A stretch of 64,000 bases of DNA from NCBI GenBank assembly GCA_024693505.1, contig JAILKU010000136.1:1-64000 (forward strand), written 5' to 3'. How positions within the stretch are numbered: position 1 is the first letter of the stretch; each line of letters starts with the position of its first letter. The DNA comes from Bacteroidaceae bacterium (GTDB lineage Bacteria > Bacteroidota > Bacteroidia > Bacteroidales > Bacteroidaceae). The notes below the pieces were generated by a model, which made no database searches, had not been told where the DNA came from, and saw only the letters and a program-made list of their open reading frames with translations. A program made the position numbers and the translations under genes. Shown piece after piece: positions 20,293-48,280 of the stretch.

Positions 20293-21710
20293 CCTACAAT
20301 CAGTTTGTTGATTAATACCGTGGGCAGGCCCTGGCTGACGGGCACGCTCTGGCCGCCCTTGCCGCACATACTGGCGCTGTGGTCGATCAGCAGGTTATTG
20401 CCGACCATACTGATGTCCCTTAGGGCCTGTGGACCGTTGCCGATGATGTTCACATCGCGAATGGGACGGGTCAGTCTTCCGTCTTCGATGAGGTAGCCCT
20501 GCTTCATGTAGAACGTGAAGTCTCCGGCCCCGATCTGTACCTGTCCGTTGGTGAAGACCTGGGCGTAGATGCCCCGCTTCACGCTGCGGATGATATCTTC
20601 CTCCGTAGCCGGTCCGGCCAGCATATAGGTGCTGCGCATTCGTGGCTGAGGCACGTGCCTGAAGCTCTCCCTGCGTCCATTCCCGGTCGGCTTTACATGG
20701 AAGTGCTCGGCGCTGACCCTGTCGTAGAGGAAACTCTCCAGCCGACCCTCTCTGACGAGTGTGGTGCATTGTCCCGGAATGCCTTCGTCATCCCATCGCA
20801 GATGGCCTGCGTCGCCCGGTTGGGTGCCATCGTCCACGATGGTGATTTCGGGGGAGCATATCTGCTTTCCGAGTTGTCCGGTGAAGATGCTGGTGCCCTG
20901 CCGGATGAAGTCGGCCTCGAAGGCGTGTCCGATAGCTTCGTGGAGCAGGATGCCGCTTCCTCCGGCAGCCATCACGACCGGCATCTCGCCGCCTTGCGGC
21001 TGAACGGCATCGAAGAGGAACGAGGCTCGGCTGATGGCTTCTGTTATCACGCTGTCTATTCGCTCCCCGGTCACGAAGTCCGCGCTCATTTGCATCATGC
21101 TGGTGGCCATTCCCATCTGTGTCTGGCCGTTCTGCTCCATCACGATGCGGACGACCAGGGCGGTCCGCGGCCGCTGGTCTTCGTAGGCCTCGCCCAGACT
21201 GTTGGCGAACTGGATGTTCTGGATGCGTTGCGTCAGGGCGGCCTTGACGCGGATGATACGCGGATCCCTTTGCCGTGCTTCCTCGTCGAGCCGAAGCAGC
21301 AGCTCGCGAACCTCATGACTGGGGATGGCCGTACATTTTGCGGGAGGCGGGTCTAAATTTTGCGGGAGGCGGGTTTTTCCCGTTTTTGAGGCGGGTCTGC
21401 AGAAATGATCCGGCGGGAGGATGAGTCCTTTTCTGTCGTTTACAGCATTGCCGCTTACGCTTGCTGCAAAACGGGCGGCTTCCTTGAGCGAGGACTCGCT
21501 GAGGTCCATTGTGTAGGCATAGCCCGTCTGGCCGTCATGCACGACGCGTATTCCGGCGCCGTAGAGCACGGCCTGCTGCGCCTGGCTGACCTTGCCGTCC
21601 TGTAGCTCGATGCTGGTGACGGTAGTGTCCTCGGCGTAGATATCGGCATACTGCCCTCCACGAGAGAGGGCAGTAGACAAGACGGGATGGAAGGAGAGTT
21701 TAAAGTTCAA
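20289..21710 (-). CDS. tldD: TldD-family metalloprotease subunit
   Basis: GILLHEAIGHAFEADFIRQGTSIF (HExxxH), DDGTQPGDAGHLRWDDEG. Start codon uncertain (TTG at 21710 within a repeat). Confidence 0.88.
   Translation of the reverse strand: MNFKLSFHPVLSTALSRGGQYADIYAEDTTVTSIELQDGKVSQAQQAVLYGAGIRVVHDGQTGYAYTMDLSESSLKEAARFAASVSGNAVNDRKGLILPPDHFCRPASKTGKTRLPQNLDPPPAKCTAIPSHEVRELLLRLDEEARQRDPRIIRVKAALTQRIQNIQFANSLGEAYEDQRPRTALVVRIVMEQNGQTQMGMATSMMQMSADFVTGERIDSVITEAISRASFLFDAVQPQGGEMPVVMAAGGSGILLHEAIGHAFEADFIRQGTSIFTGQLGKQICSPEITIVDDGTQPGDAGHLRWDDEGIPGQCTTLVREGRLESFLYDRVSAEHFHVKPTGNGRRESFRHVPQPRMRSTYMLAGPATEEDIIRSVKRGIYAQVFTNGQVQIGAGDFTFYMKQGYLIEDGRLTRPIRDVNIIGNGPQALRDISMVGNNLLIDHSASMCGKGGQSVPVSQGLPTVLINKLIVG
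21334..21399. repeat. 3 x 22-bp tandem repeat (GAGGCGGGT family) inside the tldD ORF
   Basis: CATTTTGCGGGAGGCGGGTCTA / AATTTTGCGGGAGGCGGGTTTT / TCCCGTTTTTGAGGCGGGTCTG. Confidence 0.9.
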
Positions 21711-21768
21711 AGTTTAAAGTGCATAGTTCCTATAGTTCCTATAGTGACTATAGTGACTATAGTTTGGC
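21699..21768. repeat. (TTYAAAG)3 heptamers followed by five 9-bp units TAGTTCCTA/TAGTGACTA
   Basis: Direct reading of 21699-21719 and 21724-21768. Confidence 0.9.
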
Positions 21769-21772
21769 TTCC

Positions 21773-22939
21773 TTATTTTATTATGGCTTCGGCCAGGGCT
21801 TCGAGGGCGGGAAGGTCTGCTTCCTTCATACGGCTGCGGATGGTTACCGTCGGCTCTACTATTTCAATCTCCTTCATGCTCTCCAGCATCGAGCGCATCA
21901 CCTTTCCGGCTGTGGGAGCCCAGCTGCCGTTCTCGAGTATGCCGACCCGGCGCTTCTGGTAGTTCTTGATTTGCAGATGGAAGAGGAAGTCGTGCATGAC
22001 GGGGAATACGCCGGCATCATAGCTGCTGGCACAGACTATCATGCGCGGATAGCGGAACGCATCCTCGATGACTTCGGCCATATCGTCGCGCGACAGATCG
22101 CTCACCACGACCTTCGGCGCACCCTTCTCTTTCAGTATCCCGGCCAGCTTCCCGGCTGCTGCTGCAGTACCGCCGTGAATGCTTGCGTAGGCGATTAGGA
22201 CGCCTTCGCTCTCTGGGTTATAGAGGCTCCAGGTGTTGTAGAGGTTTATGTAGGGCGTGAGGTCGCCGCTGAGTATCGGACCGTGCAGCGGACAGATGGT
22301 GCGGATGTCCAGGCCGGCTGCCTTGCGGAGCACGTTCTGCACCTGTACACCGTACTTGCCGCAGATGTTGAAGTAGTAGCGGCGTGCCTCGCAGGCCCAG
22401 TCGTCCGTCTCGTTCACCAATGCGCCGAACTTACCGAAGGCGTCGGCCGAGAAGAGGACCTTCTCCTGGTTCTCGTAGGACATGATCACCTCGGGCCAGT
22501 GGACCATCGGCGCAGCGATGAAGGACAGGGTATGCGTGCCCAGCCGGAGTGTGTCGCCCTCCTTGACGGTGAGGGTGCGGCCCGTGAAGTCGGTATGCTC
22601 GAAGAACTGGTTCAGCATCTTGAGTGCTGCCGCGCTGAGTACGACCGTCAGCTGGGGAAACTCGTTCGTCAGCTCGGCAATCATCGAGGCGTGGTCGGGT
22701 TCCATGTGATGGACCACCAGATAGTCGGGCTTCCGTCCCTCCAGTGCCGTCAGCAGGTTCTTGTGCCATTCGGCGGCCTTGCGGCGGTCGGAGGTGTCCA
22801 TGACGGCCACCTTCTCGTCCAGGATGAGATAGCTGTTGTAGCTCATGCCTTCGGGCACGGCGTACTGGCTCTCGAAGAGGTCTATGTCCAGGTCGTCGAC
22901 GCCGATGTAGCGAATGCTGTTTGAAATCTCTGTGTTCAT
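21773..22939 (-). CDS. FprA-family A-type flavoprotein
   Basis: Metallo-beta-lactamase region VVHHMEPDHASMIAEL plus C-terminal flavodoxin region LIAYASIHGGTAAAAG. Confidence 0.9.
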   Translation of the reverse strand: MNTEISNSIRYIGVDDLDIDLFESQYAVPEGMSYNSYLILDEKVAVMDTSDRRKAAEWHKNLLTALEGRKPDYLVVHHMEPDHASMIAELTNEFPQLTVVLSAAALKMLNQFFEHTDFTGRTLTVKEGDTLRLGTHTLSFIAAPMVHWPEVIMSYENQEKVLFSADAFGKFGALVNETDDWACEARRYYFNICGKYGVQVQNVLRKAAGLDIRTICPLHGPILSGDLTPYINLYNTWSLYNPESEGVLIAYASIHGGTAAAAGKLAGILKEKGAPKVVVSDLSRDDMAEVIEDAFRYPRMIVCASSYDAGVFPVMHDFLFHLQIKNYQKRRVGILENGSWAPTAGKVMRSMLESMKEIEIVEPTVTIRSRMKEADLPALEALAEAIIK

Positions 22940-22984
22940 ATTGTCTTATTGGTTTATGGGATTATTCTTCTTTGGGATGAGTCT

Positions 22985-24085
22985 TTATTTGAGGAGCTTC
23001 GACAGGGTTCTGACCAGCCTTTCGCCCCTGAGGTCGGTATCGACGACGCGGCCCTCGGGGTCGAAGAGTATCGTGGCAGGGATGGACTTGATGTAGTAGA
23101 TGTCCGAGGCCGCGCAGCCCCATCCCTTCAGGTCGCTCATCTGGGGCCAGGTGATGCCCAGGTCGGCAACGGCCTTCTCCCAGTCGGCCTTCTTGCTGTC
23201 GAACGATACGCCTACAATCTCGAAGCCCTTGGCGTGATACTTCTCGTATGCCGCCTTTACGTTGGGCATCTCGGCACGGCAGGGACCGCACCAGCTGGCC
23301 CAGAAGTCGACGAGGACGTACTGGCCCTTGCCGACCCAGTCGGTCAGGTGCACCTCCTTGTCCAGCAGGTCCTTCATGACGAGATCGGTCACCTTGGCGC
23401 CGGGAGCCTTGCGGGCCTCCTGCTCCAGCATGCTGTAGATGGGTTTCAGCCCCTCGCTCTTCGCGAAGGGATAGTCCTGAAGGTATTCGTTGAGGAACGT
23501 CGCGCTGATTTCGCGGCTGAAGACGAGCAGGGTGGCCAGCGAGGCCATGTTGCCGCGGTTCTTCTTCAGGCTTTCCACCAGCGACGCCTTGCTCTGCTGG
23601 TCGATGGCCTCCATCCGGTTCCTGAGCTGGTTAATCTCCTTCTCCGGCACGTTGTTCTCGTAATGCTGCCTCAGCTGGGCGTAGTCGCTATAGACCTTCT
23701 GCGTCTCCCTGGCCGCCAGGCGGACACTCTCGAGGCCTTCGTAGAACGCCTTGTTGGCCGCTGAGCCCTTCTCCAGTTGGGCGGGCTCGCCCTCGACGCA
23801 CTTCAGCGCCAGCTCGTCTCCGTCCAGGACCATGTCGCACACCACCTTGCGGAAGTCTTTCTGCATCGAGACGGAGGCAACCGTGGCCTTCTGCACCTCT
23901 CCGCGGAACACCGCATTGCCGTCGGAGGTGGCGGTGGTGCTGCCCAGAACGTCCTTCGTCTCGCGGGAGAGCAGGTAGGCCCTGGCGTTTTGGGGCAGGC
24001 CCTTTACGGTGACGTTATAGCTGGTCTGCGCAAGAGCCGAGAGGCTGATGCAAACCATTGCAATCTGGATAAAAATCTTCTTCAT
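22985..24085 (-). CDS. TlpA-like thioredoxin-family protein with an N-terminal DUF4369-like domain
   Basis: Signal peptide; VLVDFWASWCGPCRAEMPNVKAAYEKY. Confidence 0.88.
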   Translation of the reverse strand: MKKIFIQIAMVCISLSALAQTSYNVTVKGLPQNARAYLLSRETKDVLGSTTATSDGNAVFRGEVQKATVASVSMQKDFRKVVCDMVLDGDELALKCVEGEPAQLEKGSAANKAFYEGLESVRLAARETQKVYSDYAQLRQHYENNVPEKEINQLRNRMEAIDQQSKASLVESLKKNRGNMASLATLLVFSREISATFLNEYLQDYPFAKSEGLKPIYSMLEQEARKAPGAKVTDLVMKDLLDKEVHLTDWVGKGQYVLVDFWASWCGPCRAEMPNVKAAYEKYHAKGFEIVGVSFDSKKADWEKAVADLGITWPQMSDLKGWGCAASDIYYIKSIPATILFDPEGRVVDTDLRGERLVRTLSKLLK

Positions 24086-24153
24086 GTTCGCTTCTGTCTT
24101 GTGTATGTTGAGTAAAATGTCTGCAAATATACGAAAAATAATCAGAATCGGCG

Positions 24154-24184
24154 TTGCCGTAGCCGGAAAATATGCTATCTTTGC
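24154..24184 (+). promoter_or_regulatory. Bacteroidetes-type promoter for the lyase/GH88 fusion
   Basis: GTTG-N19-TATCTTTG. Confidence 0.5.
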
Positions 24185-24219
24185 AAAAGTTTATGATTTC
24201 CGGAGACATTTATTAAGAT

Positions 24220-26559
24220 ATGGTAATGATGAAAAAGTATGTTCTTGCAGTTTTGTTCATTGGGCTGAGCGCGACGGCCGGGGCCCAGCAGTTATGGAAC
24301 CTCCCTCACCTGGAGCGCGTCAGGCAGTCGCTCGACGAGCCTTACTACGCCGAGGCCTTCAGACACCTTGCCGAGGATGCCGACTCACTCCTGCAGTGCA
24401 GGCCATTGAGCGTGACGGACAAGTCCGACGTGCCGGCCAGCGGTGACAGGCACGACTACATGAGCCTGGCGCGATACTACTGGCCCGACCCCTCGAAGCC
24501 CGACGGACTGCCCTACGTCAACCGCGACGGCCTCTCGAACCCCGAGCTGAACCGCTATGACCGCAACCGGCTGGGCACCACCTGCCGGCGCATCATCACC
24601 CTGGCGCTGATGTGGTACTTCAGCGGGAACGAGGCGTACGCCGCCAAGGCGGTTGAGCTGATGAGGACGTGGTTCCTGAATCCCGCCACCCGCATGAACC
24701 CCAACCTCAACTATGCGCAGATAGCCAAGGGGCACGACGGGAACCGCGGCCGCTCCTACGGCGTGCTCGATGCCTATTCGCTGGTCGAGACGCTGGACGC
24801 CCTGACCCTGCTGGAGGGCTCGAAGTCGTTCCCCGCCAAGGACCGCAAGAAGATGCGGCAGTGGGTGAAGAACCTCCGCGACTGGATGCTGAAGAGCGAG
24901 CAGGGGAAGCAGGAGCGCGCCGGAGGCAACAATCACGGCGTGGCATGCGATGCCATGCTGGCTGCCTTCTCGCTCTATGTGGGTGACGAGGCTACGGCCA
25001 GGAGCGTCCTTGACGAAGTGCCCGCCCGCTGCATTGACAGGCAGATTGAGCCCGACGGCCGGCAGCCCCAGGAACTCCGCCGCACCCTGGCCTTCCATTA
25101 CTCCATCTATAACCTCGGCTTCCTGGCCGACCTCTGCCTGATTGGCCACCGCCTGGGCATCAACCTCGAGGACTACCGCAGTAGCGACGGACGGAGCATC
25201 TACGGCGCCCTCGGCTTCCTGGCGCCCTACCTGGGCAAGCCGCAGACTGAGTGGCCCTATCAGCAGCTCCACGGATGGGACGCCAAGCAGCACGACCTGG
25301 CCCGTCTGCTCTACCGCTTCGGGCGATACATGAACGGCGCGCCCGCCACATACCTCGCCCTCTACGAGCAGAACAAGGTGCTCGACATGAAGAACCGTTT
25401 CCATCTGCTCTGGTACGACGCCACGCTCACCGACCAGGCCCTCTACGGCGCAGCCAGGCAGCTCGAGTATGCCGACCAGGAGGCGCGCAAGGCCAAGCGA
25501 CTGAAGGAGAACAGGGCCGAGAACAGAGTCATACCCCGAACCTTCAACAAGGACGGCCGGCTCGTGCTCGTCAATCCCAACGACTGGTGCTCGGGCTTCT
25601 TCTCCGGAACCCTCTGGATGATGTATCAGTACACCAACGGCCAGGCCTGGCGCGAGAGGGCCGTCAACTGGACGTGGCCCATTGAGGACGCCAAGTGGGA
25701 CCGCGGCACGCACGACCTCGGCTTCATGATGTACGACAGCTTCGGCAAGGCATACGAGATCACTGGCGAGCAGTCCTATCTCGACGTCGTACTGCAGAGC
25801 GCCCGTTCCCTCATCACCCGCTTCAACCCCACCGTCGGATGCATCCGCTCGTGGGACTTCAACCGCGAGAAGTGGCACTACCCCGTCATCGTGGACAACA
25901 TGATGAACCTGGAGATGCTCTTCCGCGTCACCCAGCTAACGGGCGACTCCACATACTGGCGCATCGCCGTCTCGCACGCCAACACCACGCTGAAGAACCA
26001 CTTCCGCCCCGACCACTCCAGCTACCACGTCATCGACTACAACCCCCAGACGGGCGAGGTGCGCAAGCGCAACACCGCACAGGGAAATGCCGATGACTCG
26101 TTTTGGAGCCGCGGACAGGGATGGGGCCTCTACGGCTTCACGATGTGCTACCGCTTCACGCGCGACCCGCGCTACCTGCAACAGGCCACCGACATCGCCG
26201 ACTTCTGGCTCTCCCTGCCCCTGCCCGACGACGGCATTCCCTACTGGGACATGAAGCTGCCCGCCGTGGATGAGCAGACGCCGCGCGATGCCTCCGCCTC
26301 CGCCGTCATCGCCTCCGCCCTCTACGAGCTCTCGCAGTACGTTCCCGCCGACCGCGCCGCCCGCTACCTGGCCTATGCCGACCGCGTGACGGAGAGCCTC
26401 TACCGCCACTACCGCGCCCCCCAAGGCACCAACGGCGGCTTCCTCCTCCTGCACAGCACGGGCCACAAGCCGGAGAACAGCGAGGTGGACGTCCCCCTCA
26501 ACTATGCCGACTACTACTACCTCGAAGCCCTCCTCCGCCGCCGGGGACTGGGACGATAA
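24220..26559 (+). CDS. Fusion of an alginate-lyase-superfamily (PL38-like) domain and a GH88-like unsaturated glucuronyl hydrolase domain
   Basis: N-half: DYMSLARYYWPDPSKPDGLPYVNRDG, GGNNHGVACDAMLAAFSLYV, AFHYSIYNLGFLADL. C-half: DDSFWSRGQGWGLYGFTMCY, HSTGHKPENSEVDVPLNYADYYYLEAL. Confidence 0.85.
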   Translation: MVMMKKYVLAVLFIGLSATAGAQQLWNLPHLERVRQSLDEPYYAEAFRHLAEDADSLLQCRPLSVTDKSDVPASGDRHDYMSLARYYWPDPSKPDGLPYVNRDGLSNPELNRYDRNRLGTTCRRIITLALMWYFSGNEAYAAKAVELMRTWFLNPATRMNPNLNYAQIAKGHDGNRGRSYGVLDAYSLVETLDALTLLEGSKSFPAKDRKKMRQWVKNLRDWMLKSEQGKQERAGGNNHGVACDAMLAAFSLYVGDEATARSVLDEVPARCIDRQIEPDGRQPQELRRTLAFHYSIYNLGFLADLCLIGHRLGINLEDYRSSDGRSIYGALGFLAPYLGKPQTEWPYQQLHGWDAKQHDLARLLYRFGRYMNGAPATYLALYEQNKVLDMKNRFHLLWYDATLTDQALYGAARQLEYADQEARKAKRLKENRAENRVIPRTFNKDGRLVLVNPNDWCSGFFSGTLWMMYQYTNGQAWRERAVNWTWPIEDAKWDRGTHDLGFMMYDSFGKAYEITGEQSYLDVVLQSARSLITRFNPTVGCIRSWDFNREKWHYPVIVDNMMNLEMLFRVTQLTGDSTYWRIAVSHANTTLKNHFRPDHSSYHVIDYNPQTGEVRKRNTAQGNADDSFWSRGQGWGLYGFTMCYRFTRDPRYLQQATDIADFWLSLPLPDDGIPYWDMKLPAVDEQTPRDASASAVIASALYELSQYVPADRAARYLAYADRVTESLYRHYRAPQGTNGGFLLLHSTGHKPENSEVDVPLNYADYYYLEALLRRRGLGR

Positions 26560-26588
26560 CACTAACCCTAACCTTAACGCGGCGCCAT

Positions 26589-26628
26589 GAAACGGAAAAG
26601 CGAGGCCGATGCCTCGCTTTTCCGTTTC
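26589..26628 (+). terminator. Perfect 18-bp stem, 4-nt loop hairpin downstream of the fusion gene
   Basis: GAAACGGAAAAGCGAGGC-CGAT-GCCTCGCTTTTCCGTTTC. Confidence 0.75.
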
Positions 26629-27032
26629 TCTTCCCTCCATTACGGGAGGGGGCGGGGGAGGGTCTTCTGGGGGTGGGCTTCTCTGCTCCATCCCGTTTTC
26701 TGGGTCGCCGTGGCCGAGACCTCCTCCGCCGTTTTCCTGCTCCGTGAGCATGGCGAGGCCCGTTTTCAACTCTCCGCGCTCCCGACGCCTCCCTCCGGCT
26801 GAGGGCGTCCGCTGTCTATATGGTTCGACTTCTTGTTCATCTTATCTCGTTATGGTTTTACGCCAGGTTCCGCTCTTTCTCTTCCTTGCCCAAGCCGGGA
26901 GCGTAGTTCAGCCACTGGTCGCCGCTCTCTGCCAGTATCTTCGTGCACTTCAAGAGCACGACCCCCATGGAAGTCTTTGCGGCTACAGATATACAAAAAC
27001 TTTAGCGGACAGCAATAATTAAAAGTGAATAA

Positions 27033-27073
27033 AGGCGGGCGGAAGTATTGCATATCGTTACCTTCGCCCGCCT
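27033..27073. terminator. Stem-loop downstream of uxaC
   Basis: AGGCGGGCG ... CGCCCGCCT flanked by A/T-rich sequence. Confidence 0.65.
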
Positions 27074-27143
27074 AAATCATAGCCGTCTGCGCCGTCGTGT
27101 GCATCGCGGCAAGTGAGACCGCAGATATTCGTGCAGTCCAGTC

Positions 27144-28547
27144 TTAGAACTGGAAGTAGCGCTTGGCGTTCCAGTAGCAGATGTCGCGCACCATCTCGCG
27201 TATGCGGGGCATCTCCTCCTGGGGCAGCTCGCCATTCTCCACGTCGTTGCCCAGCAGGTTGCACAGCGTGCGGCGGAAATACTCGTGGCGCGGGTATGAG
27301 AGGAACGAGCGGCTGTCGGTGAGCATGCCCACGAAGCGGCTCAGCAGTCCCAGCACGGAGAGGGCGTTCATCTGCCGCTCCATGCCGTCCTTCTGGTCGT
27401 TGAACCACCATCCGCTGCCGAACTGCAGCTTGCCGGGCACGGGGGCTTCCTGGAAGTTGCCGATCATGGTGGCCAGCATCTCGTTGTCGGAGGGGTTGAT
27501 GCAGTAGAGGATGGTCTTGGCCAGGTTGCCCTCTACGCAGAGGCGGTCGAGGAAGCGGGCCAGGCTGGCTGCCACGTCGGGCGTGCCGATGGAGTCGAAG
27601 CCCGTGTCGGGACCCAGCTGGCGCATCATGCGGGTATTGTTGTTGCGGATGGGGCCGTAGTGGAACTGCTGCGTCCAGCCGGAGCGCGCGTCTTGGCGTC
27701 CAAACTCCAGCATCAGCGCCGAGCGGAACTTCCATACCTCGTCCCTGGTGGGAGCCTTGCCGTCGAGCACCTTCCGGAAGATGGCCGACACCTCGGCCTC
27801 CGTGAACGGCTCGGCGTAGAACTCGTTTATGCCGTGGTCAGAGAGGTGGCAACCCATCTCGTCGAAGAAGTCGTGGCGCTTCTGCAGGGCGTTGAGCAGG
27901 TCGACGTAGCTGCTGATGGTGCAGTCGGCGGCGGCCTCGAGCTTCTGGATGTACTGTCGGTAGGCCTGTGGGTCTTCAATAGCCATCGCCTTGTCGGGGC
28001 GCCAAGTGGGCAGCATCTTCACCTCGAAGCCGCTCTCGGCCGTCTGACGGTGATACTCCAGCGAGTCGGCGGGGTCGTCGGTGGTGCATACGGTCTCCAC
28101 CCTGTAGCGCTTCATCAGGCCACGCGCGCTGAACTCGGGGCGGGCCAGCTTCTCGTTGCACTCATCGTAGATCTCGCGCGCATTGGCGGGGTTCAGCAAC
28201 TTCTGAATGCCGAAGGCGGTGCGGAGCTCGAGATGCGTCCAGTGGTAGATGGGGTTGCGCATGCAGTAGGGCACGGTATCGGCCCACTTCTGGAACTTCT
28301 CCCAGTCGCTGGCTTCACCCGTGATGTAGTGCTCGTCCACTCCGTTTGTGCGCATGGCGCGCCATTTGTAGTGGTCGCCGCCCAGCCACAGCTCGGTGAT
28401 GCTGCTGAAGCGATGGTCCTCGGCCACCATCTTGGGGTCGAGGTGGCAGTGGTAGTCTATGATGGGGAGGTCGGCTGCCTCCTCGTGGTATAGCTTCCTG
28501 GCTGTCTCGGTCTGCAGCAGGAAGTCCTTGTCCATGAATGGTTTCAT
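27144..28547 (-). CDS. uxaC: Glucuronate isomerase
   Basis: LPIIDYHCHLDPKMVAEDHRF, ELWLGGDHYKWRAMRTNGV, SFLSYPRHEYFRRTLCNLLG. Confidence 0.96.
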   Translation of the reverse strand: MKPFMDKDFLLQTETARKLYHEEAADLPIIDYHCHLDPKMVAEDHRFSSITELWLGGDHYKWRAMRTNGVDEHYITGEASDWEKFQKWADTVPYCMRNPIYHWTHLELRTAFGIQKLLNPANAREIYDECNEKLARPEFSARGLMKRYRVETVCTTDDPADSLEYHRQTAESGFEVKMLPTWRPDKAMAIEDPQAYRQYIQKLEAAADCTISSYVDLLNALQKRHDFFDEMGCHLSDHGINEFYAEPFTEAEVSAIFRKVLDGKAPTRDEVWKFRSALMLEFGRQDARSGWTQQFHYGPIRNNNTRMMRQLGPDTGFDSIGTPDVAASLARFLDRLCVEGNLAKTILYCINPSDNEMLATMIGNFQEAPVPGKLQFGSGWWFNDQKDGMERQMNALSVLGLLSRFVGMLTDSRSFLSYPRHEYFRRTLCNLLGNDVENGELPQEEMPRIREMVRDICYWNAKRYFQF

Positions 28548-28548
28548 A

Positions 28549-28600
28549 TTGATGGGAATGATGGGATTAATGGGAGGGATGGGAATGATGGGGGATGGGG
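28549..28600. repeat. 9-bp tandem units (NNNATGGGA)n
   Basis: TTGATGGGA/ATGATGGGA/TTAATGGGA/GGGATGGGA/ATGATGGGG. Confidence 0.85.
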
Positions 28601-28605
28601 CTGCA

Positions 28606-29781
28606 TTACTTCAGCCCCATGCTGTTGGCGATGCCCCATTCGAGTCCGCGCAACTCGGCCAGTCCGCGCAGACGGCCGATGCAGCTGTAGCCGGGGTTGG
28701 TCTTCTTCCTGAGGTCGTCGCACATCTGGTGTCCGTGGTCGGGACGCATGACGATGCTCTTCCGGCGCTTCTGCTGAATCTCTAGGAAGGCCTTCATCAC
28801 CTCATACATGGGCACGTCGCCCTCCAGGTGGTTCGCCTCGTGGAAGTTGCCCTCGGCATCGCGCTGCGTGCTGCGCAGATGGACAAAGTCTATGCGGTCC
28901 CAGAAACGGCGCATCATGTCGGGCAGGTCGTTCTGCGCGCTCACGCCGAAGGAACCCGTGCACAGGCAGAGCCCGTTGGCGGGACTGGGCACTGCATCGA
29001 TGAGCGCCTGGAAGTCGTCGGCCGTGCTCAGGATGCGGGGCAGACCCAGTATGGACATGGGCGGATCGTCGGGATGGATGACCAGGCGTACACCTGCCTG
29101 CTCGGCTGCCGGACATACCTCGCTCAGGAAATAGATGAGGTTCTGGCGCAGGCGCTCGGGAGTGATGTCCTTGTAGCGGTCCAGCTCCTTCTGGAACTGC
29201 TCCAGGGTGAAGCTCTCCTCGGAACCGGGCAGGCCGGCTATCATGTTGCGGGTAATGAGCTTTATCTCGGCCTCGTCCATCTGTTCGAAGCGGGTCTTTG
29301 CCTTGGCCTGCTCCTTGGCGCTGTAGTCCTTCTCGGCGCCCGGACGCTTCAGGATGAAGAGGTCGAAGGCTACGAAGGCAGCGCGCTCGAAGCGCAGGGC
29401 ACGGCTCCCGTCGGGCATTTCGTAGGCCAGGTTGGTGCGCGTCCAGTCGAGCACGGGCATGAAGTTGTAGGTCACCACGTCTATGCCGCACTCGCCCAGG
29501 TTGATGAGGCTCTGCTTGTAGTTGTCGATGTACTTCTGGAATTCTCCCGTCTGTGTCTTGATGTGCTCGTGTACGGGCACACTCTCCACAGCGGCCCAGC
29601 GTAGGCCGGCGTCTTCGACCGTCTGCTTACGCTTAAGGATCTCTTCCTTGGTCCATACTTCGCCGTTGGGAATGTGGTGCAAGGCGGTTACAACACCTGT
29701 AGCACCCGCCTGGCGGATATCTTGCAGGCTGACTGGGTCGTTGGGCCCATACCAGCGGAAACTTTGTTCACAGAGAAACAT
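28606..29781 (-). CDS. uxuA: Mannonate dehydratase
   Basis: [57 protein letters not shown]. Confidence 0.96.
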
Positions 29782-29804
29782 AGGGCATATTGTTTAAAGG
29801 TTCT

Positions 29805-30614: not shown

Positions 30615-30644
30615 AGTGATATGTATTTATTTGTTCGTGATAAT

Positions 30645-32219: not shown

Positions 32220-32584
32220 GTTGTTGGTTTATTTGTTATTGTTAAGTACGTTTTGCGGTCATTTTACTCGCTTTTTTAGTGGAACGACCCTGCAAATTTA
32301 TGAAATATTATAATAACTGACAACTATTTTGCAAAAATAGTGTAAAAAGGTGTATTCTTTTCTCTTCTTCTTTTCTGCCGTGATATTATTTTTGCCAGGT
32401 AAATTCATTCATATCTTTATAGATAGTGATAACTAACCAATCTGTTGCTTTGTGACCAAAATAATCTGTTTACAGTCCGATACCGATATATTTCTTCCTT
32501 TTCTTCAATGATTTAAAGAAGTATTTTGTATATTTGTGCCCGAATTTGCGAGAGATTGAGAATTTGATTAGAAGAAGAAACTAT

Positions 32585-34905: not shown

Positions 34906-34961
34906 ATACGAAATAAAGGTTCAATAGGTTCAAGGGTTCCCCTTTAAGGGGGCTAGGGGGT

Positions 34962-37340: not shown

Positions 37341-37361
37341 ATTGGTCTGATGTAGATGCCT

Positions 37362-39167: not shown

Positions 39168-39227
39168 TCTTATTTTGGTTATGGTTTGTTATAATCTTTG
39201 CTCTCGCTCCGCCTTCTTTTCGGACCT

Positions 39228-39315
39228 CGGTGTAGGAAAGGCAAAACATCGGTGTTGAATCGTTAAAACATCGGTGTAGGAAAGGCAAAACAACGGCGTT
39301 GTTTTTTTGCCCGCC
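39228..39315. repeat. 4 x 22-bp tandem repeat
   Basis: CGGTGTAGGAAAGGCAAAACAT / CGGTGTTGAATCGTTAAAACAT / CGGTGTAGGAAAGGCAAAACAA / CGGCGTTGTTTTTTTGCCCGCC. Confidence 0.88.
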
Positions 39316-39655
39316 TTTTGGTGTTTTTGTGCTAATTGTGCTTCGATGTCTGCCCGAATCGGCGTAACTGATACATTCCAACCGCAAAAGTACAAATATT
39401 TTTGAAAACTGCGTGCACTTTGGTCTTAAAAGTAAAGGAAATCCCTAAATAATGGTGATAATTCCTGTAAGGCGTACTCTGCAGCGAGCTTTAGTCCGGC
39501 ATACATTGGATGAACACAAGCCCGACATAAGCTCAACACAAGCCCCCGATGATGTGAATAGTGTTAATTTAATGTTAAAATTGGCGCTTGTTTGCAATGG
39601 TAAGCCGGAAATTGCGTATTTTTGACAAGCAAAAGCACAATTTCATATAAATACT

Positions 39656-41176: not shown

Positions 41177-41183
41177 TCGCACC

Positions 41184-41215
41184 CTTGCACCTTGAACCCT
41201 TGAACCCTTGAACTT
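41184..41215. repeat. CTTGAACC-type 7/8-bp tandem repeat
   Basis: CTTGCAC CTTGAACC CTTGAACC CTTGAAC, just upstream of the next ORF. Confidence 0.75.
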
Positions 41216-41222
41216 TCCTCTT

Positions 41223-42074
41223 ATGATAAAGAAACTATTTCTGCTCTGCGGCCTGATGATGGCCTTAAGTACAGGCCTTCAGGCTAAGACGAAGGCCGAG
41301 AAGGCTGGTTGGAAGATAGCCGTCCAGTCCTACACTTTCCACCAGTTCAGCCTCCAGGAGGCCCTCGAAAAGTGCCAGGAGCTGGGCATCAAATACATCG
41401 AAGTCTATCCCGGCCATAAGTTGGGCGAGGGATATGGCGACCTCTCCTTCGGTCCCGACCTGGATGCCGCAACGCTGAAACGCATTCGCCAGGATGCCTC
41501 GCGCCGCGGAGTGAAGATCGCGGGGTCGGGAGTCTTCGTGTCCGACAGCGAGGCGGAATGGAACAAGTTCTTCCAGATGGCAAAGGCCATGAAGCTGGAG
41601 TACGTCACCTGCGAGCCGAACCCCGAGGATTGGGACATTGTGGAAGCCCTTTCCCGCAAGTATGGCATCAAGGTGGCTGTTCATAATCATCCCCGCCCCT
41701 CCACTTATTGGAACCCCGATGCCTTGATGCAGCTCATCCAGAACCGCGCCCGGGGAATAGGCAGCTGTGCCGATATCGGCCACTGGAACCGTCAGGGGCT
41801 GGACGAGATGGAATGTCTGCGCAGGGTGGGGGACCGCCTGATAACCTTCCACTTCAAGGATATCGCCTCGAAGCGCGGGGGTGAGGCCGAGCAGACGGAT
41901 GTCATCTGGGGCACGGGCTGCCTCAAGCTGAAGCAGATTCTCCAGCACCTCCGCGATATGAAATGGAAGGGTTATCTCGCTGTGGAATACGAGGCCAACT
42001 GGCTAAACTCGGTACCAGACATCCGCAAATCCCTCCAGTACTTTGAGTCCCTCTCGGAGGAGGTGCTCAAGTAG
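41223..42074 (+). CDS. Exported sugar phosphate isomerase/epimerase-like TIM-barrel protein
   Basis: Signal peptide MIKKLFLLCGLMMALSTGLQAK; WKIAVQSYTFHQFSLQEALEKCQELGIKYIEVYPGH; SCADIGHWNRQGLD. Confidence 0.9.
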   Translation: MIKKLFLLCGLMMALSTGLQAKTKAEKAGWKIAVQSYTFHQFSLQEALEKCQELGIKYIEVYPGHKLGEGYGDLSFGPDLDAATLKRIRQDASRRGVKIAGSGVFVSDSEAEWNKFFQMAKAMKLEYVTCEPNPEDWDIVEALSRKYGIKVAVHNHPRPSTYWNPDALMQLIQNRARGIGSCADIGHWNRQGLDEMECLRRVGDRLITFHFKDIASKRGGEAEQTDVIWGTGCLKLKQILQHLRDMKWKGYLAVEYEANWLNSVPDIRKSLQYFESLSEEVLK

Positions 42075-42150
42075 AGGCGGGTCTTGCAGAATTTCGAGGC
42101 GGGTTTTGCAAGATTTTGAGGCGGGTTTTGCAAAACCTTGAGGCGGGTCA
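42074..42150. repeat. 3.5 x 22-bp tandem repeat (GAGGCGGGT family)
   Basis: GAGGCGGGTCTTGCAGAATTTC / GAGGCGGGTTTTGCAAGATTTT / GAGGCGGGTTTTGCAAAACCTT / GAGGCGGGTCA. Confidence 0.93.
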
Positions 42151-42567
42151 GCGCTTCAGTACTTTGTATGTCCGCTTTCCGTCCTTTACGACGTAAGTGC
42201 CCTTGGGCAGAGCGGACAGATCGACTGTAGCAGCGCCTTCGCGGGCAGAAGACTTGCGTACGAGTTTGCCCGAGAGGTCGTAGATGGCTACCGTCAGGCA
42301 GTCCTTTTCGCGGATGGTGATGGACTCAACCGAAACGGCATCGTCCGAGAAGGTCACTTTCTCTACCTCGGCGAAGGGAAACTCTACGGTCACCGCCTCT
42401 GTGGCAACCTTTATTACCTCGGGCGAAGGGAAGGTCACCTTCGGTTCCTCGGTGAAGGCGAAGCTGACGATTCCGCTTGTTGTCGTATAGAGGTTCAGCG
42501 TCTGCTGGGCAGCTGCGAAGTAGCAGCAACCCAGCAGGCATATTGTAGAAAGAATGCGTTTTACCAT
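42148..42567 (-). CDS. Small secreted protein with a T9SS C-terminal-sorting-like domain
   Basis: LTVAIYDLSGKLVRKSSAREGAATVDLSALPKGTYVVKDGKRTYKVLKR. Confidence 0.7.
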   Translation of the reverse strand: MVKRILSTICLLGCCYFAAAQQTLNLYTTTSGIVSFAFTEEPKVTFPSPEVIKVATEAVTVEFPFAEVEKVTFSDDAVSVESITIREKDCLTVAIYDLSGKLVRKSSAREGAATVDLSALPKGTYVVKDGKRTYKVLKR

Positions 42568-44039
42568 AGTTCTTTATCTTCTCTGATTTCTTTTGCATGT
42601 ATGAGCAGTCGCTCGGAAACACCGAGGTCGGTAGCCTTCTTGATATATGCCGGCGGCGTGTAAGGCAGCAGGTCTTTGCGCAGATAGGGAGCGGCGGCTC
42701 CTGGATCTACGATTCGTGCATCGATGGTCTGTACGATGAGGCGGTCGTTGGGAATCTCCAGCAGTCCGTCCTCTTTCTTATCGCCGTTACCCCAGGGATT
42801 CCGCATGCCGAAGATGGAACTCTCCTGCGTTGAGAGCATATAGGTAAAGGCGTGGCCGGTGACGGTCTTCAGCGTGCCGCAGAGCAGGTCGCCCTTGTTG
42901 AAGCCGCCCACACATATCTTGCCCTCGGTCAGGCTGTGCTCGATGGCTTTCTGCAGCTCGGAGGTGTAGAGCGAGTTGGGCGAGAAGGCGAAGCTGTCGC
43001 CGCATCCCGTATAGAGGGGAGCTACGTGCTCGGTGCCGATGCCCTCTATGCCGTTTGTCTTATAGATGGTCATGTACTTCATCATAGCCTTCTCCAGAAT
43101 TGTTGACCAGCAGGCGACGTTGTTCTTTCCCGTTACCTGCCCGATGTTGCCGTTCCCGTCGCACAGGATGGTGTTTGAGACGCAGACGTCAACGGGACTG
43201 CCCTGCGGATCGTACATGCCAACTGTGTATGAACCGTTGCCGTTGTCGGTGATGATGTGTTTGATATAGTCGGGATAGAGGTAGGCCAGCGAGGCATAGA
43301 CGGCACAGGCGCAGCAGTCTCCGATGGCGTGCTGGTTGACGTCGGCCGGCTTGGGGTCGTCGTATGGGTATAGCTTTATCGTCTTCTTTACCCAGCGGGA
43401 GAGGTTGGCCACCTTGTCGGGCTCATTGGCCGGATTGGCCAGCCATTCGCGGTCGGCATCGGTAGTCTTGTGTTTGCCCTCGAAGTGCTTTCCCATCGGC
43501 GTAACGGAGGAATTGCTCTTGCCCGAGGCGTACTTCAGGATGCTGTTGATGCTGCCCGTTTCGGTATGCGAGGGGTCCATCAGCACGTTTGCGGCCAGTT
43601 CCTTCGAACAGTAGAAGTAGCGCAGGGCGTCTCCGTCCTTCAGTATCAGCTGGTCGTCGGTCTGCTTCTGAACGGTCCAGCGCAGTGTGCCGATTGTGCC
43701 GTCCCGGCCTGAGGCCAGGAAATACTTGCTTGACGGCCTGTAGCGAACCGTGTAGTAGCCAGGCGTACTCTTTCCGCCCCAGATGAGCTCTGGGCCGGCA
43801 AAGGTCATGTACTCCGTGCCGTCGAAGTGAATGACGTTCGAACCGTTCTTCCAATAGCCCAGGTACCAGGTGCCGAAGATATAGGTGTTCTCCTCGTCGA
43901 CCATAGTGATGCTCTCCACCTTTGGTGTGCGGAACATGGACATTGTGCCGTCTTGATGATGTACGATGATGCCCTGTGCCGCCAATTTGGGGGCGCAGAG
44001 AAGTATCAACGTCATAGCTGAAAGTAGTTTTTTCTTCAT
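42561..44039 (-). CDS. Secreted calpain-like (C2 family) cysteine protease
   Basis: Signal peptide; NQHAIGDCCACAVYASLAYLYPDYIKHIITDNGNGSYTVGMYDPQGSPVDVCV, VTGHAFTYML, GMRNPWGNG, consistent with a Cys-His-Asn triad. Confidence 0.82.
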   Translation of the reverse strand: MKKKLLSAMTLILLCAPKLAAQGIIVHHQDGTMSMFRTPKVESITMVDEENTYIFGTWYLGYWKNGSNVIHFDGTEYMTFAGPELIWGGKSTPGYYTVRYRPSSKYFLASGRDGTIGTLRWTVQKQTDDQLILKDGDALRYFYCSKELAANVLMDPSHTETGSINSILKYASGKSNSSVTPMGKHFEGKHKTTDADREWLANPANEPDKVANLSRWVKKTIKLYPYDDPKPADVNQHAIGDCCACAVYASLAYLYPDYIKHIITDNGNGSYTVGMYDPQGSPVDVCVSNTILCDGNGNIGQVTGKNNVACWSTILEKAMMKYMTIYKTNGIEGIGTEHVAPLYTGCGDSFAFSPNSLYTSELQKAIEHSLTEGKICVGGFNKGDLLCGTLKTVTGHAFTYMLSTQESSIFGMRNPWGNGDKKEDGLLEIPNDRLIVQTIDARIVDPGAAAPYLRKDLLPYTPPAYIKKATDLGVSERLLIHAKEIREDKELW

Positions 44040-44071
44040 TTCCTTATTTCTTTATTTAGTTTTGTCTATTG

Positions 44072-44887
44072 TCATTTCGTCTTCTTCTGCCAGACACGGA
44101 CGTAGTCAACCTCCATCGTAACGGGCAGGGCCTTTGCGTCCACTCCCCTGTAGCCGCCCCAGTCGCCGCCCCAGGCCAGGTTCAGGATAGGGTAGAAGGG
44201 GGCATTGAAGGGCCAGGTGTCGCGATTGCCCGTCTTGTCGTTTTCGAAGTAGAGCTGTTCCTTTCCGTCCACAAAGGTGCGGATGTAGTCGGCCGTCCAT
44301 TCAAGGGCATAGACGTGAAAGTCCGACTCGGCGGTAGGGCAGAGCATTTCATGCGTCTTCTGCGTCTTCTGCGGATGGTTGTAGGCGCGGCAATGTATGC
44401 TGCTGGAAACGCGGTTGGCGTCAACGCCCACTTCCTCCAGAATGTCAATCTCGCCGTCGGCCGGCCATCCCTTGGTATGCTTGACGGGCATCATCCAGAA
44501 GGCAGGCCATGTGCCGCGACCGACGGGCAGCTTGATGCGTGCCTCGATGTAGCCGTACTCGAAGCCCTCCTGACGGTTGCCGTAGATGCGGGCCGAGTAC
44601 ACCTTGTCTCCCTCGGCCAGCGCGCGGATCTTCAGCGTGCCGTCGCTTACGAGGGCTGTCTGCGCGCCTTGGGGCGTAATGCCTTTCACATAGGTCTGCA
44701 GCTCGTTGTTCACCCATCCGGCACGGCTTTCCTGCCAAGTCCACTTGCTTTCGTCGAGGGTGCTGCCCTTGAACTCGTCGCTCCAGACGAGCTTGTAGCC
44801 CTTCAGGGGGCAGCTTTTGCCTTTTGCCATCGCAACGCTTGCAGTTGATGCTGCAAAGAGTAGCGCAAGGATAAGAGATTTCTTCAT
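44072..44887 (-). CDS. GH16-family endo-glycanase (beta-glucanase-like), secreted
   Basis: YKLVWSDEFKGSTLDESKWTW, WPAFWMMP, WPADGEIDILEEVG (ExDxxE). Confidence 0.92.
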   Translation of the reverse strand: MKKSLILALLFAASTASVAMAKGKSCPLKGYKLVWSDEFKGSTLDESKWTWQESRAGWVNNELQTYVKGITPQGAQTALVSDGTLKIRALAEGDKVYSARIYGNRQEGFEYGYIEARIKLPVGRGTWPAFWMMPVKHTKGWPADGEIDILEEVGVDANRVSSSIHCRAYNHPQKTQKTHEMLCPTAESDFHVYALEWTADYIRTFVDGKEQLYFENDKTGNRDTWPFNAPFYPILNLAWGGDWGGYRGVDAKALPVTMEVDYVRVWQKKTK

Positions 44888-45077
44888 TTTTTCCAGCGTT
44901 TTGTCTGTTTCCGAGGGCAAAGTTAACTTATTTTTCCTGAATAGAAAGCGTTTGGGCAATATTTCTGCGTCAATAATCTTAAAAATTGCTAAAAGCGGAC
45001 AATTCCTTTCCCTAAATGTGCGAGTTCCGGTTCAAAAAGCGTAACTTTGCATTGCCGAACATAAAGATTTTGCCAAA

Positions 45078-45617
45078 ATGAGAGTTTCCGTTCTTTCCCC
45101 GTGCCTTCGCCTGACTTTTATGGCGAGTCTGCTTTTCTGTTTCTGCCTGGCCGGAAATGCCCGTACCACTTCTTCTGAGGCCAAGAAGGACACCACGATT
45201 TATGACCAGGTAGAGAAGATTGCTGAATTCCGCGGCGGGCAGCAGGCCTGCTACCAGTTCCTGAGCAAGAACATCCAGTATCCCATCCTGTGCCAGCTGT
45301 TCCACTACGGCGGCCGCGTTATGGTGCAGTTCGTTGTCGAGCGCAACGGAAAGCTGACCCACATTCATGCCCTGCGGCAGTTCGGCGGTAAGGCTATGCC
45401 GGAGGACCGCATCGTAACCAACGAAGAGGCCTTCCAATACAAGACGGCCTATCCGCAGCGCTCGGCTGAGGTTCACGAAGGCCTGAATCTGGCCGATAAA
45501 CTGGTTGAGGAAGCTGTGCGCGTCGTGAAGAAAATGCCCAACTGGAAGCCCGCCCTTGATGCAGAGGGCAATAAGGTGAGGATGCGGATGACGCTACCTG
45601 TCGTCTTCAAACCTTAG
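45078..45617 (+). CDS. TonB C-terminal-domain protein, secreted
   Basis: Signal peptide; IQYPILCQLFHYGGRVMVQFVVERNGKLTHIHALR ... AVRVVKKMPNWKPALDAEGNKVRMRMTLPVVF. Confidence 0.85.
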   Translation: MRVSVLSPCLRLTFMASLLFCFCLAGNARTTSSEAKKDTTIYDQVEKIAEFRGGQQACYQFLSKNIQYPILCQLFHYGGRVMVQFVVERNGKLTHIHALRQFGGKAMPEDRIVTNEEAFQYKTAYPQRSAEVHEGLNLADKLVEEAVRVVKKMPNWKPALDAEGNKVRMRMTLPVVFKP

Positions 45618-45639
45618 CAGTTCTGCCTTTTCGTGGGCA

Positions 45640-45679
45640 ATTACTACGAATAAACGTTCTATTACTACGAATAAACGTT
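45640..45679. repeat. Two 19-bp direct repeats, 21-bp period
   Basis: ATTACTACGAATAAACGTT at 45640 and 45661. Confidence 0.9.
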
Positions 45680-45687
45680 AAAATTGC

Positions 45688-45731
45688 ACGAATCTCGCAA
45701 TTTTTCAATATCGAAATCTTGCGAGATTCGT
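45688..45731. promoter_or_regulatory. 13-bp perfect inverted repeat upstream of the BlaI-like gene (operator or terminator)
   Basis: ACGAATCTCGCAA-N18-TTGCGAGATTCGT, followed by TTTTC. Confidence 0.6.
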
Positions 45732-45778
45732 TTTCTTTCCCTTACTTTGCAGCACGAAAACCAATAAAACGCAGAATT

Positions 45779-46210
45779 ATGAAACGAGACGATCTGAATC
45801 TAACGCGAGTGGAGTTCCAGGTGATGAGTATAATCTGGGACCTTGGAAAGAGCGTTTGTGCCTGGGACGTGCTGGAACGTTGCCCTGAGCCGAAGCCCGC
45901 CTATACGACTGTAGCAACCTATCTGAAGGTGCTCTTTGAGAAGGGCTACCTAACTTATCACAAGGAGAAGGGGCAGGGCAAGACCCATCGCTATGCCCCG
46001 CTGGTGACGAAGGCCGAATATACGCGCCGCACGATGCAGTCGGTGAAACGCGACTTCTTCTCGGGCAGCCTGAAGTCGATGCTCAGCTACTTCGTTCGCG
46101 AAGAGAACCTTTCGGAGGAAGAGGTGAAGGAACTGATTGAGATGGTAAAGCCCACAGGGCCCACCCCCAACCCCTCCCAGGGAAGGGGAGACGCCGAAGA
46201 CATCTTATAG
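45779..46210 (+). CDS. BlaI/MecI/CopY-family transcriptional repressor
   Basis: LTRVEFQVMSIIWDLGKSVCAWDVLERCPEPKPAYTTVATYLKVLFEKGYLTYHKEKGQGKTHRYAPLV. Confidence 0.93.
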   Translation: MKRDDLNLTRVEFQVMSIIWDLGKSVCAWDVLERCPEPKPAYTTVATYLKVLFEKGYLTYHKEKGQGKTHRYAPLVTKAEYTRRTMQSVKRDFFSGSLKSMLSYFVREENLSEEEVKELIEMVKPTGPTPNPSQGRGDAEDIL

Positions 46211-46261
46211 TTCCTGTAGTTTTTATAGTTCCCATAGTTCCCATAACTCTCATAATCCCCC
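46208..46261. repeat. Six consecutive 9-bp units TAGTTCCCA-like
   Basis: TAGTTCCTG/TAGTTTTTA/TAGTTCCCA/TAGTTCCCA/TAACTCTCA/TAATCCCCC. Confidence 0.88.
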
Positions 46262-46268
46262 CAGAAAA

Positions 46269-47873
46269 ATGACCGCAATCCTATTATATTCCATGAAGTC
46301 GGCGCTGGTACTGGTGCTGCTCTACTTGCCCTATATGCTGATGCTTCGGCGCGAGAGTTTCTTCCGTTTCAACCGTTTGGTTCTGCTGGGCATCCTCGGG
46401 TTTTCGCTCGTACTGCCTTTGTGCAATGTACCAGGCCTATCGCTCGACCGCCAGCCAGTTGTTCAGGCGGCTCAGCGGCAGATGTTGGAACTGGGTGTCC
46501 CTGTTCACGTTCTGCCCGAACTGCTGATTACGCCCGACGGCGTTGCGCCTCAGGCCTCGTCCTCCTCCGTCACCCTGTTCATGCTCGTCAGCCTTATATA
46601 TATAATAGGTATAGTCGTTGTGCTGGTGGTTCGGGGTTGGCAGATATACCGCTTGCAGTCGGGCCTTCAGCGCGGAAGCCTCTGGAAGCAGCAAGAAGAC
46701 GGCGTCACCATCTTCTGCCACGCTGACCCAGGCCTTTCGCCCTTCAGCTGGATGAAGAGCATCGTGGTTAGCGAAGCCGACTACGAAGAGGCAGGGCGCG
46801 AAATCGTGCTCCATGAGACGGGTCACATCCGCAATCGCCATTCCCTGGACGTCCTGCTGCTCACCCTCGTCGAGATGCTCCAGTGGTGGAATCCGCTTGT
46901 CTATATGCTTGGCATCAGCCTGCGCGATGTGCACGAATATGAGGCCGATAACTACGTCCTCAGCAGCGGCGTCTCGCCAACCGAATATCAACTTCTGCTC
47001 ATAAAAAAAGCTGTTGGCTCAGGTTCCTACGCTTTCGCCAACAACTTTAACCATAGTTTAACTAAAAAACGTATCACTATGATGAAGAAATCAAAATCAA
47101 ATCCGTGGATGAGGAGCAAGGCTCTCTACATCCTGCCGGTGGCTACGTTGGCGCTGAGCGCCTTCGCTACGCCTAAGTTCGTCGCTCCTGTTGAGAGCGC
47201 AGTGTCTAATCTCGGGGGCAAAGTTACGGAGAAATCCGCAATCAGCCAAACTTCTGAGGGAAAAAGTGCAGGAACCATTCCTGAAAACAGAAAAATAGTT
47301 CATGTAAAGGAGGGAACTATGCGCGTAAAGGTTGACGGGAAGGAGATGACGCCCAACGAAGCTCTGAAGGCCGTTCGCGGCAAGGAAATCAAGAACAGCC
47401 TGAGCACCGGCTCCGACGGTTCGACGATGCTCTCCATTAAGACCGAAGCGCCCGCAGAGCAGAAAGACAGTATTTACAATGTGGTGACGCATAATGCCCA
47501 GTATCCTGGTGGCGAAGCAGAGTTCTTTAAGTTTCTTGCCGAAAATCTTCGCTATCCCAAGCTCTGCCAGGAATTCGGTTTTCAGGGGCGAGTCATTATG
47601 CAATTCGTAGTCGAGAAGGACGGAAGCATCACCGAAATCAGCAAGGTTCGCGGTCCTGGGAAGGTGCTTTCTCAGGTGGATATTACTTCCTACAAGACGG
47701 ACCATCCCGACAGCAAGGAACAGCTGGAGGCCGGTCAGGACCTGGGCGATCTGCTCGTCGAAGAGAGCATCCGCGTGCTGAAGCTTATGCCCAAGTGGAA
47801 ACCTGCCCGCAATGAGAAGGATGAGATTGTCCGCTGTCGTTTCAATGTGCCGTTCCAGTATAGGTTGAATTAG
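46269..47873 (+). CDS. BlaR1-like M56 metallopeptidase fused to a C-terminal TonB domain
   Basis: N-terminal TM helices, IVLHETGHIRNRHSLDVLLLTLVEMLQWWNPLVYM (HExxH), C-terminal LRYPKLCQEFGFQGRVIMQFVVEKDGSITEI. Confidence 0.92.
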   Translation: MTAILLYSMKSALVLVLLYLPYMLMLRRESFFRFNRLVLLGILGFSLVLPLCNVPGLSLDRQPVVQAAQRQMLELGVPVHVLPELLITPDGVAPQASSSSVTLFMLVSLIYIIGIVVVLVVRGWQIYRLQSGLQRGSLWKQQEDGVTIFCHADPGLSPFSWMKSIVVSEADYEEAGREIVLHETGHIRNRHSLDVLLLTLVEMLQWWNPLVYMLGISLRDVHEYEADNYVLSSGVSPTEYQLLLIKKAVGSGSYAFANNFNHSLTKKRITMMKKSKSNPWMRSKALYILPVATLALSAFATPKFVAPVESAVSNLGGKVTEKSAISQTSEGKSAGTIPENRKIVHVKEGTMRVKVDGKEMTPNEALKAVRGKEIKNSLSTGSDGSTMLSIKTEAPAEQKDSIYNVVTHNAQYPGGEAEFFKFLAENLRYPKLCQEFGFQGRVIMQFVVEKDGSITEISKVRGPGKVLSQVDITSYKTDHPDSKEQLEAGQDLGDLLVEESIRVLKLMPKWKPARNEKDEIVRCRFNVPFQYRLN

Positions 47874-47967
47874 TATGATTGCTGATTCCCAACTTATTAT
47901 ACGATTTTATTATACTAAAGTTTTATCGACATTAAATAGTTTAAATTAGTAAAGAATAGAGGCGCCA

Positions 47968-48013
47968 ACCCGCCGAACAGCCTGAGACAGGTCGTTCGGC
48001 GGGCTTTGTTTTC
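47968..48013 (+). terminator. Intrinsic terminator
   Basis: CCCGCCGAAC-N15-GTTCGGCGGG followed by CTTTGTTTT. Confidence 0.85.
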
Positions 48014-48016
48014 AAC

Positions 48017-48280
48017 GCACTCTTCCGGAGGATAATTTGCAGCCCTTAGGAAAAAAAATTGCTACCCTTAGGAGAAAAAATTGCTACCCTTAGGAGAAAC
48101 AAATGCAGCCCTGCGGAGAATCAACTGAAAACTCCTCGGTACAAGATTCTCTTCCTTCGGCATAAATTTCCAACTCTTCGGTGAAAAAGTTTTTCCTACG
48201 GGAATAATTTTATGTTCAAAGTCTCCGAATGTACATCCGAAAACCTTGAACGTACATTCAAAGTCTTTGAACGTAAAACA
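48017..48280. repeat. About 12 degenerate 22-bp tandem units
   Basis: GCACTCTTCCGGAGGATAATTT / GCAGCCCTTAGGAAAAAAAATT / GCTACCCTTAGGAGAAAAAATT / GCTACCCTTAGGAGAAACAAAT / GCAGCCCTGCGGAGAATCAACT / ... / CAAAGTCTTTGAACGTAAAACA. Confidence 0.75.

Follow-up and report, generated by a model that had tools for sequence, protein, structure and literature searches.

Plasmid iterons, like the TnsB sites in the ends of Tn7, are tandem sites of one protein, spaced by about two helix turns (about 22 bp). Lineage-specific repeats in the intergenic DNA of Bacteroidales are exemplified by two elements, BrickBuilt and PINSR, which are the relevant reports in the open-access literature on 22-bp intergenic repeats in Bacteroidetes and Prevotella. 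BrickBuilt of P. gingivalis is a minisatellite-MITE of imperfect 23-nt tandem repeats, dispersed in intergenic DNA in 19 copies that hold up to 22.8 units of one sequence, flanked by a leader and a tail that are conserved and bear terminal inverted repeats; 22-nt repeats are mentioned there too for P. gingivalis strain W83 (PMC4596501). The corresponding passages on PINSR, from Prevotella intermedia/nigrescens, describe a non-coding sequence of 188 bp in 177-184 intergenic copies, with no terminal inverted repeats and of unknown function (PMC4755523). A period common to unrelated sequences is not described in these passages of either report (PMC4596501, PMC4755523). In REP dimers the spacers are variable, 20-100 bp in most (PMC3733652). 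Bacterial repeat families are defined by sequence, which in the genus analysed here turns over fully between congeners; what persists is a period of 22 bp in elements built from about four units, and the two best-sampled families hold that spacing in about 99% of their pairs.

The window, by which we mean the whole stretch of 64,000 nt, comes from a Bacteroidales MAG with contamination of about 4% (GCA_024693505.1, contig JAILKU010000136.1), called G000 below. Genes were called with a simple codon-usage script, and repeats were located by a lag scan, an ungapped self-match at every lag (+1/-1.5), with window arrays counted at a score of at least 13. At lag 22 the window holds six such arrays, and at lags 16, 17, 19, 20, 23, 24, 25 and 26 none; five of the six lie in called intergenic DNA, 200 dinucleotide shuffles of which gave a maximum of 0 (Table 1). 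The initial annotation had named five loci with different cores and a shared 22-bp period. The period is real, but the loci at 21334 and 42074 have the common core GAGGCGGGT/ACCCGCCTC and are one family, so that the five are four unit types, and the triplet at 39513 is marginal, although comparable non-coding matches at the scanned lags are limited to 18-, 21- and 44-bp ones. The array inside the tldD-like gene is in frame, in a linker whose variation among relatives makes the exact insertion point unreadable and led us to drop the gene as an empty-site test. The 42074 array takes up the entire gap from one stop codon to the other of a convergent gene pair (ends 42074 and 42148). Upstream of ileS the array probably extends, decayed, to about 48215, because the G+C/A+T pattern repeats at 22 over 48017-48215 (autocorrelation 0.43 at lag 22, next best 0.15); the last part of it, taken alone, has a weak 22-bp signal and a best lag of 20.

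Table 1. Repeat arrays of the window and features near them
Feature	Position	Strand	Basis or remark
AT-rich island	15000-16600		39% G+C over 15-16 kb; carries 11-bp arrays
11-bp array AAGCATACATA x4.9, in phase at 22 too	about 15013-15067	.	lag scan
11/22-bp array, CATGTAGGCAT type	15333-15376	.	lag scan
Small ORF in AT-rich island	15527-15898		resembles BRCT domain
HicB-like antitoxin in AT-rich island, adjoining possible toxin gene	16041-16388	-	by eye
tldD-like gene	20289-21680	-	
Three ACCCGCCTC-family units at 22 bp, inside tldD-like gene	21332-21397	-	lag-scan segment 21332-21374
9-bp arrays of ATAGTTACT type	21723-21764, 28550-28592, 46206-46245		
22-bp array ACATCGGTGTAGGAAAGGCAAA, 3.4 units, between divergent genes	39224-39299	.	
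Marginal 11/22-bp triplet AACACAAGCCC	39513-39545	.	score 11, 33 bp of 11-bp units
Four ACCCGCCTC-family cores at 22 bp	about 42074-42149	-	lag scan and core search
22-bp array TTGCTACCCTTAGGAGAAAAAA, 4 units, upstream of ileS (48506-51916)	48034-48127	.	lag scan
Probable decayed continuation of 48034 array, YTTCGG-type cores near 22-bp grid	48128-48215	.	
Long 7-bp arrays (CTTGAAC, ATTGTCC x28)	63636-63682, 63758-63956		

The period extends far beyond the window. Over 1.06 Mb of G000 the scan finds 57 segments at lag 22 vs 2, 6 and 7 at lags 19, 20 and 23, with lags 11 and 44 standing out too; when arrays explained by periods of 2-11 bp are subtracted, 42 remain at period 22 vs 21 for 14 control periods summed. 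Further peaks at 7/14/21 bp (the second) and 9/18 bp (the third, smaller) were put aside as separate simple repeats. The congener G025 has 50 segments at lag 22 and 0 at lags 20 and 23 in 480 kb, and in 0.79 Mb of contigs whose ileS is 64-73% identical to that of the window, mostly from other Prevotellaceae-type MAGs, the peak is weaker, at 13 vs 1 at lag 20 and 2 at lag 23. Twenty 20-kb stretches from other Bacteroidales families (400 kb) gave one lag-22 array and no peak. Most ileS relatives of G000 are MAGs from rumen and gut that carry the label Bacteroidaceae, Prevotellaceae or Bacteroidales. The genome collection includes 36 congeners; the genomes, mostly incomplete MAGs, were sampled as stretches, unevenly across species. 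The 22-bp peak is genus-wide, every sampled species having its own dispersed intergenic arrays, usually of three to five units with unrelated and often dyad-symmetric cores; in G004 the period is 23. Dyad symmetry is enriched, with 21 of 122 arrays at p<0.05, and was rejected as a universal rule; many G000 units are not dyad-symmetric. A shared 22-bp period without shared sequence, together with the 11-bp units of the island at 15 kb, is thus what the initial annotation had seen, and the genome-wide census it called for does give sharp peaks at 22 and 11: the observation is confirmed, and is larger than the initial annotation knew.

In G000, where called coding sequence makes up about 79% of the DNA, 55 of the 56 lag-22 arrays are intergenic. 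Genes were called on both sides of 36 of these arrays, of which 16 are in convergent and two in divergent gaps, against a background of 47 convergent and 62 divergent among 367 gaps. The 30-mer ACCCGGGTGTAAATTTTACTAGACCCGCCT, a unit pair, is identical on many contigs, and the copies on contigs C44 and C108 have the element in common and not the flanks; at least the main family has therefore been dispersed as an element. Its right edge lies near GACCCGCCTCGCGTAARAAA, and the right ends bear an A-run and no T-run. The initial annotation would have counted its hypothesis as refuted if the loci proved to be one diverged mobile repeat. In G000 this is partly so: it holds for this largest family, whose dispersed near-identical copies include two of the five loci, and is untrue of the other G000 arrays and of those of different species. 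Many 22-bp arrays of G000 lie less than 1 kb from a contig end (e.g. L095, L100, L126, L127, L130, L165), usually 3' of the nearest gene, and the assembly may break nearby. G017 has two copies of a stretch of about 330 bp (L177:2950-3330 and L179:6000-6370), with a four-unit 22-bp array at its end.

The motif differs from species to species. The main G000 units are [A/G]ACCCGSST, alongside AAGTCCACGGACTT, TTCCCAGCCTGGGAA, AAACAACGCCGTTGTTT and other types; the motif is CGCACCACGNTGCG in G025, ACGACCGGTCGT in G016, AACTTCACGTGTGAAGTT-like in G012, GCAAAATACCTATTTTGC among others in G017 and, at period 23, CGACAATACTATTGTCG-like in G004. The families are species-restricted: in whole-genome pattern counts the unit pair of G025 has 485 matches in its own genome and none in 60 others, and the G000 pair has 84 in G000, nine in G007, one in G019 and none in 58 others. 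In G007, a distant congener (ileS 69% identical), contigs C52 and C53 share with G000 the 22-bp pair ACCCGGGT...RACCCG with different spacers; species nearer to G000 than G007 are without it. Seven relatives have 22-bp arrays upstream of ileS with units unlike those of the window. Our first view of these as orthologous arrays with changed sequence is no longer needed, as chance may suffice for the shared location when 70 of the 186 G025 gaps of at least 50 bp carry an array.

While the letters change, the spacing is held. A search for neighbouring cores that allowed any gap of 0-29, so that the spacing was not presupposed, found 659 of 660 pairs exactly 22 apart in G025 and 142 of 143 in G000, where the sole exception is an ACCCGCGT pair, unlike the family. 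In G016, 16 of 18 strand-counted matches are at 22, and the remaining two are a single site at 21, read from both strands. The G025 spacers themselves are of 51 kinds among 90, with 223 of 720 positions off consensus (mean 2.5 of 8). Core and spacer measure about 12+10, 14+8 or 18+4 according to species, with a constant sum. Bacterial indels occur in the order of one per ten substitutions, and if spacer length were neutral they should be common at this ratio. A fixed length with varied letters fits a factor that reads phase.

We accordingly favour, at a probability of roughly 45%, the reading that the arrays are dispersed elements, each with about four protein-binding sites in helical phase, whose spacing would be under selection. 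Each element would be a short non-coding stretch, usually of three to five species-specific sites with centres two helix turns (22 bp) apart, and each site would most likely be bound by a dimer of a putative DNA-binding protein, the spacing bringing the dimers to the same side of the helix, where they could touch and cooperate. Within a genome, whole units are copied into many intergenic regions; between species, the putatively recognised sequence has been replaced and the phasing retained. The protein may be a nucleoid- or insulator-type factor, or an enzyme that spreads the element. Several observations sit badly with phased sites: strict phasing at 11 bp per turn would not predict the 23-bp period of G004, many G000 units lack dyad symmetry, and replacing hundreds of sites per species is hard to square with an ordinary regulator. 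The T-run that ends the G025 elements is left over by this reading.

The alternative that survives best, though we consider it unlikely, is that the period was simply inherited and has no function: a single ancestral family of 22-bp intergenic repeats would have spread through the group, drifted in sequence and been homogenised in each genome. The weaker peak in other Prevotellaceae-type contigs would follow from such descent, as would the core that G007 has in common with G000 without the spacers, a loose likeness among the units of G012, L013 and L017, and a 23-bp species explained as an inherited one-base change. However, a single change of length among 660 pairs whose spacers have diverged is unexpected for neutral DNA, several unrelated unit types of one period coexist in G000, and the sum of core and spacer stays at 22 where the core length differs between species.

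The anatomy of the G025 elements speaks for phased sites and bears on the remaining alternatives. Aligned on their T-run ends, 63 elements show four core positions on a 22-bp grid over about 82 bp, with conservation highest beside the T-run and declining toward the opposite end; most end in a core followed by T4-5. No column is conserved beyond about 82 bp and the T-run in this alignment, and most elements are without leader or tail. For spacers 1 and 2 the letters are specific to position (information 13.25 vs a maximum of 12.74 in 1000 permutations), and the element is therefore copied or maintained as a whole. Elements are often found near stop codons and rarely less than 100 bp from start codons. 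Units occur in either orientation with their centres remaining on the grid. The arm letters are kept, the two central letters are AC or GT with few exceptions, and over the five outer plus inner arm pairs of units 2-4 the G.T mismatches (32) are about as scarce as the A.C ones (25), for which reasons the site looks more like a double-stranded DNA site than an RNA stem. Twelve sites picked for conserved flanks proved to lie mostly within a longer dispersed repeat. This repeat, of roughly 300 bp, consists of a 22-bp array and the conserved downstream blocks TTGAKAATCAAGCGGTTA, CATTCTCAC and AATCTTCCGATTT; copies lie at L182:17497, L239:18929, L245:17854, L248:7470, L249:608 and elsewhere, without an Rfam match in the stretches scanned.

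If each unit were a small transcript hairpin, the array could act as a transcription terminator or 3'-end stabiliser, which we regard as rather improbable. In its favour, the G025 elements end in a core followed by a T-run and fold better than shuffled letters (-36.9 vs -26.3 kcal/mol), and in G000 the arrays prefer convergent gaps and avoid divergent ones. Against this, only 36 of 62 G025 T-runs follow an upstream gene on their own strand, and the element is as frequent in divergent gaps (15 of 37) as in gaps overall; the terminator reading is weakened because neither orientation nor divergent-gap frequency follows the genes. The G025 elements show no RNA covariation, the letters of their inner pair often do not match, and folding is equally good on the reverse strand (-39.3 kcal/mol). 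Moreover, separate hairpins need no exact spacer length, the right ends of the G000 family bear no T-run, and an Rfam scan of the window and four G025 stretches returned tRNAs only. T-run orientation had no clear link to GC skew or gene strand in G025; the T-runs at array ends lie on the contig + strand 45 times vs about 20 on the - strand, which may reflect replication direction or chance.

A mutational process such as slippage or template switching, favouring 22-bp steps and producing arrays anywhere without selection, would account for unrelated units with a common period, for the 11- and 44-bp peaks and for some arrays, such as L147 and L165, whose tandem copies are almost perfect. We give it little credence: the G025 arrays form a dispersed family, with cores at four positions and spacers specific to their place, rather than the product of open-ended slippage, old and diverged spacers retain their length, and the other Bacteroidales families sampled have no 22-bp peak. 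The interpretation in the initial annotation, that a process or a DNA-binding factor measures length rather than sequence, is thus partly supported, in that a phase-reading factor fits the near-invariant core spacing, whereas a purely mutational, length-measuring amplification is less likely because of the four-unit build and position-specific spacers of G025.

That these are ordinary REP/BIME or MITE elements mobilised by a known RAYT or insertion sequence is very improbable: species-specific intergenic palindromes in hundreds of copies are indeed REP-like (PMC3733652, PMC3116915), and the BrickBuilt report supplies a MITE with 23-nt tandem repeats (PMC4596501), but the Y1_Tnp domain (PF01797) had no match in four array-bearing, incomplete MAGs (G000, G004, G012 and G016, with G025 outside the sample), which makes RAYT-driven REPs unlikely, most G025 elements have no leader or tail, and the spacers of described REP dimers vary.

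It is possible, if doubtful, that the arrays represent a class of element defined by geometry, about four sites on a strict two-turn grid in intergenic DNA throughout the genus, in which both the recognition sequence and the putative protein that spreads or reads it would be replaced per species. From the arrays we infer a protein bound to the sites and selection on their spacing; they point to an undescribed DNA-binding protein or mobilising enzyme with a species-variable recognition site in little-studied gut bacteria. The function of an intergenic repeat becomes testable here, by altering the spacing while keeping the sequence.

By distribution, REP/BIME elements are the nearest kind. Like REPIN and BIME, the arrays are intergenic, often palindromic, species-specific, clustered, in both orientations and in hundreds of copies (PMC3733652, PMC3116915); they are repetitive and extragenic as REPs are, with palindromy enriched and not universal (p<0.05 in 21 of 122 arrays). 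They differ in that REP/BIME have variable spacing and a RAYT, whereas the present arrays keep a strict 22-bp grid of about four units. A GTAG or CGTC tag at the palindrome end was not found by inspection of the G000-family alignment, and the letters CGTC are present, inconsistently, in some G025 spacers. BrickBuilt shares with them the order, an intergenic dispersed element and repeats near 22 bp (PMC4596501), whereas the elements described here are mostly without leader and tail, have few units and carry another sequence in each species. PINSR, compared by description and from the passages used, is likewise a lineage-specific, intergenic, non-coding repeat in many copies, but one 188-bp sequence is common to four species, with no internal 22-bp period reported there (PMC4755523). 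In geometry the arrays resemble iterons and TnsB sites, with several tandem putative sites at about two-turn spacing, and the constant helical spacing of such sites is found in the core pairs of G025, G016 and G000. Iterons and TnsB sites, however, belong to one origin or to the two ends of one transposon, whereas the present arrays occupy more than a third of the intergenic gaps of a chromosome.
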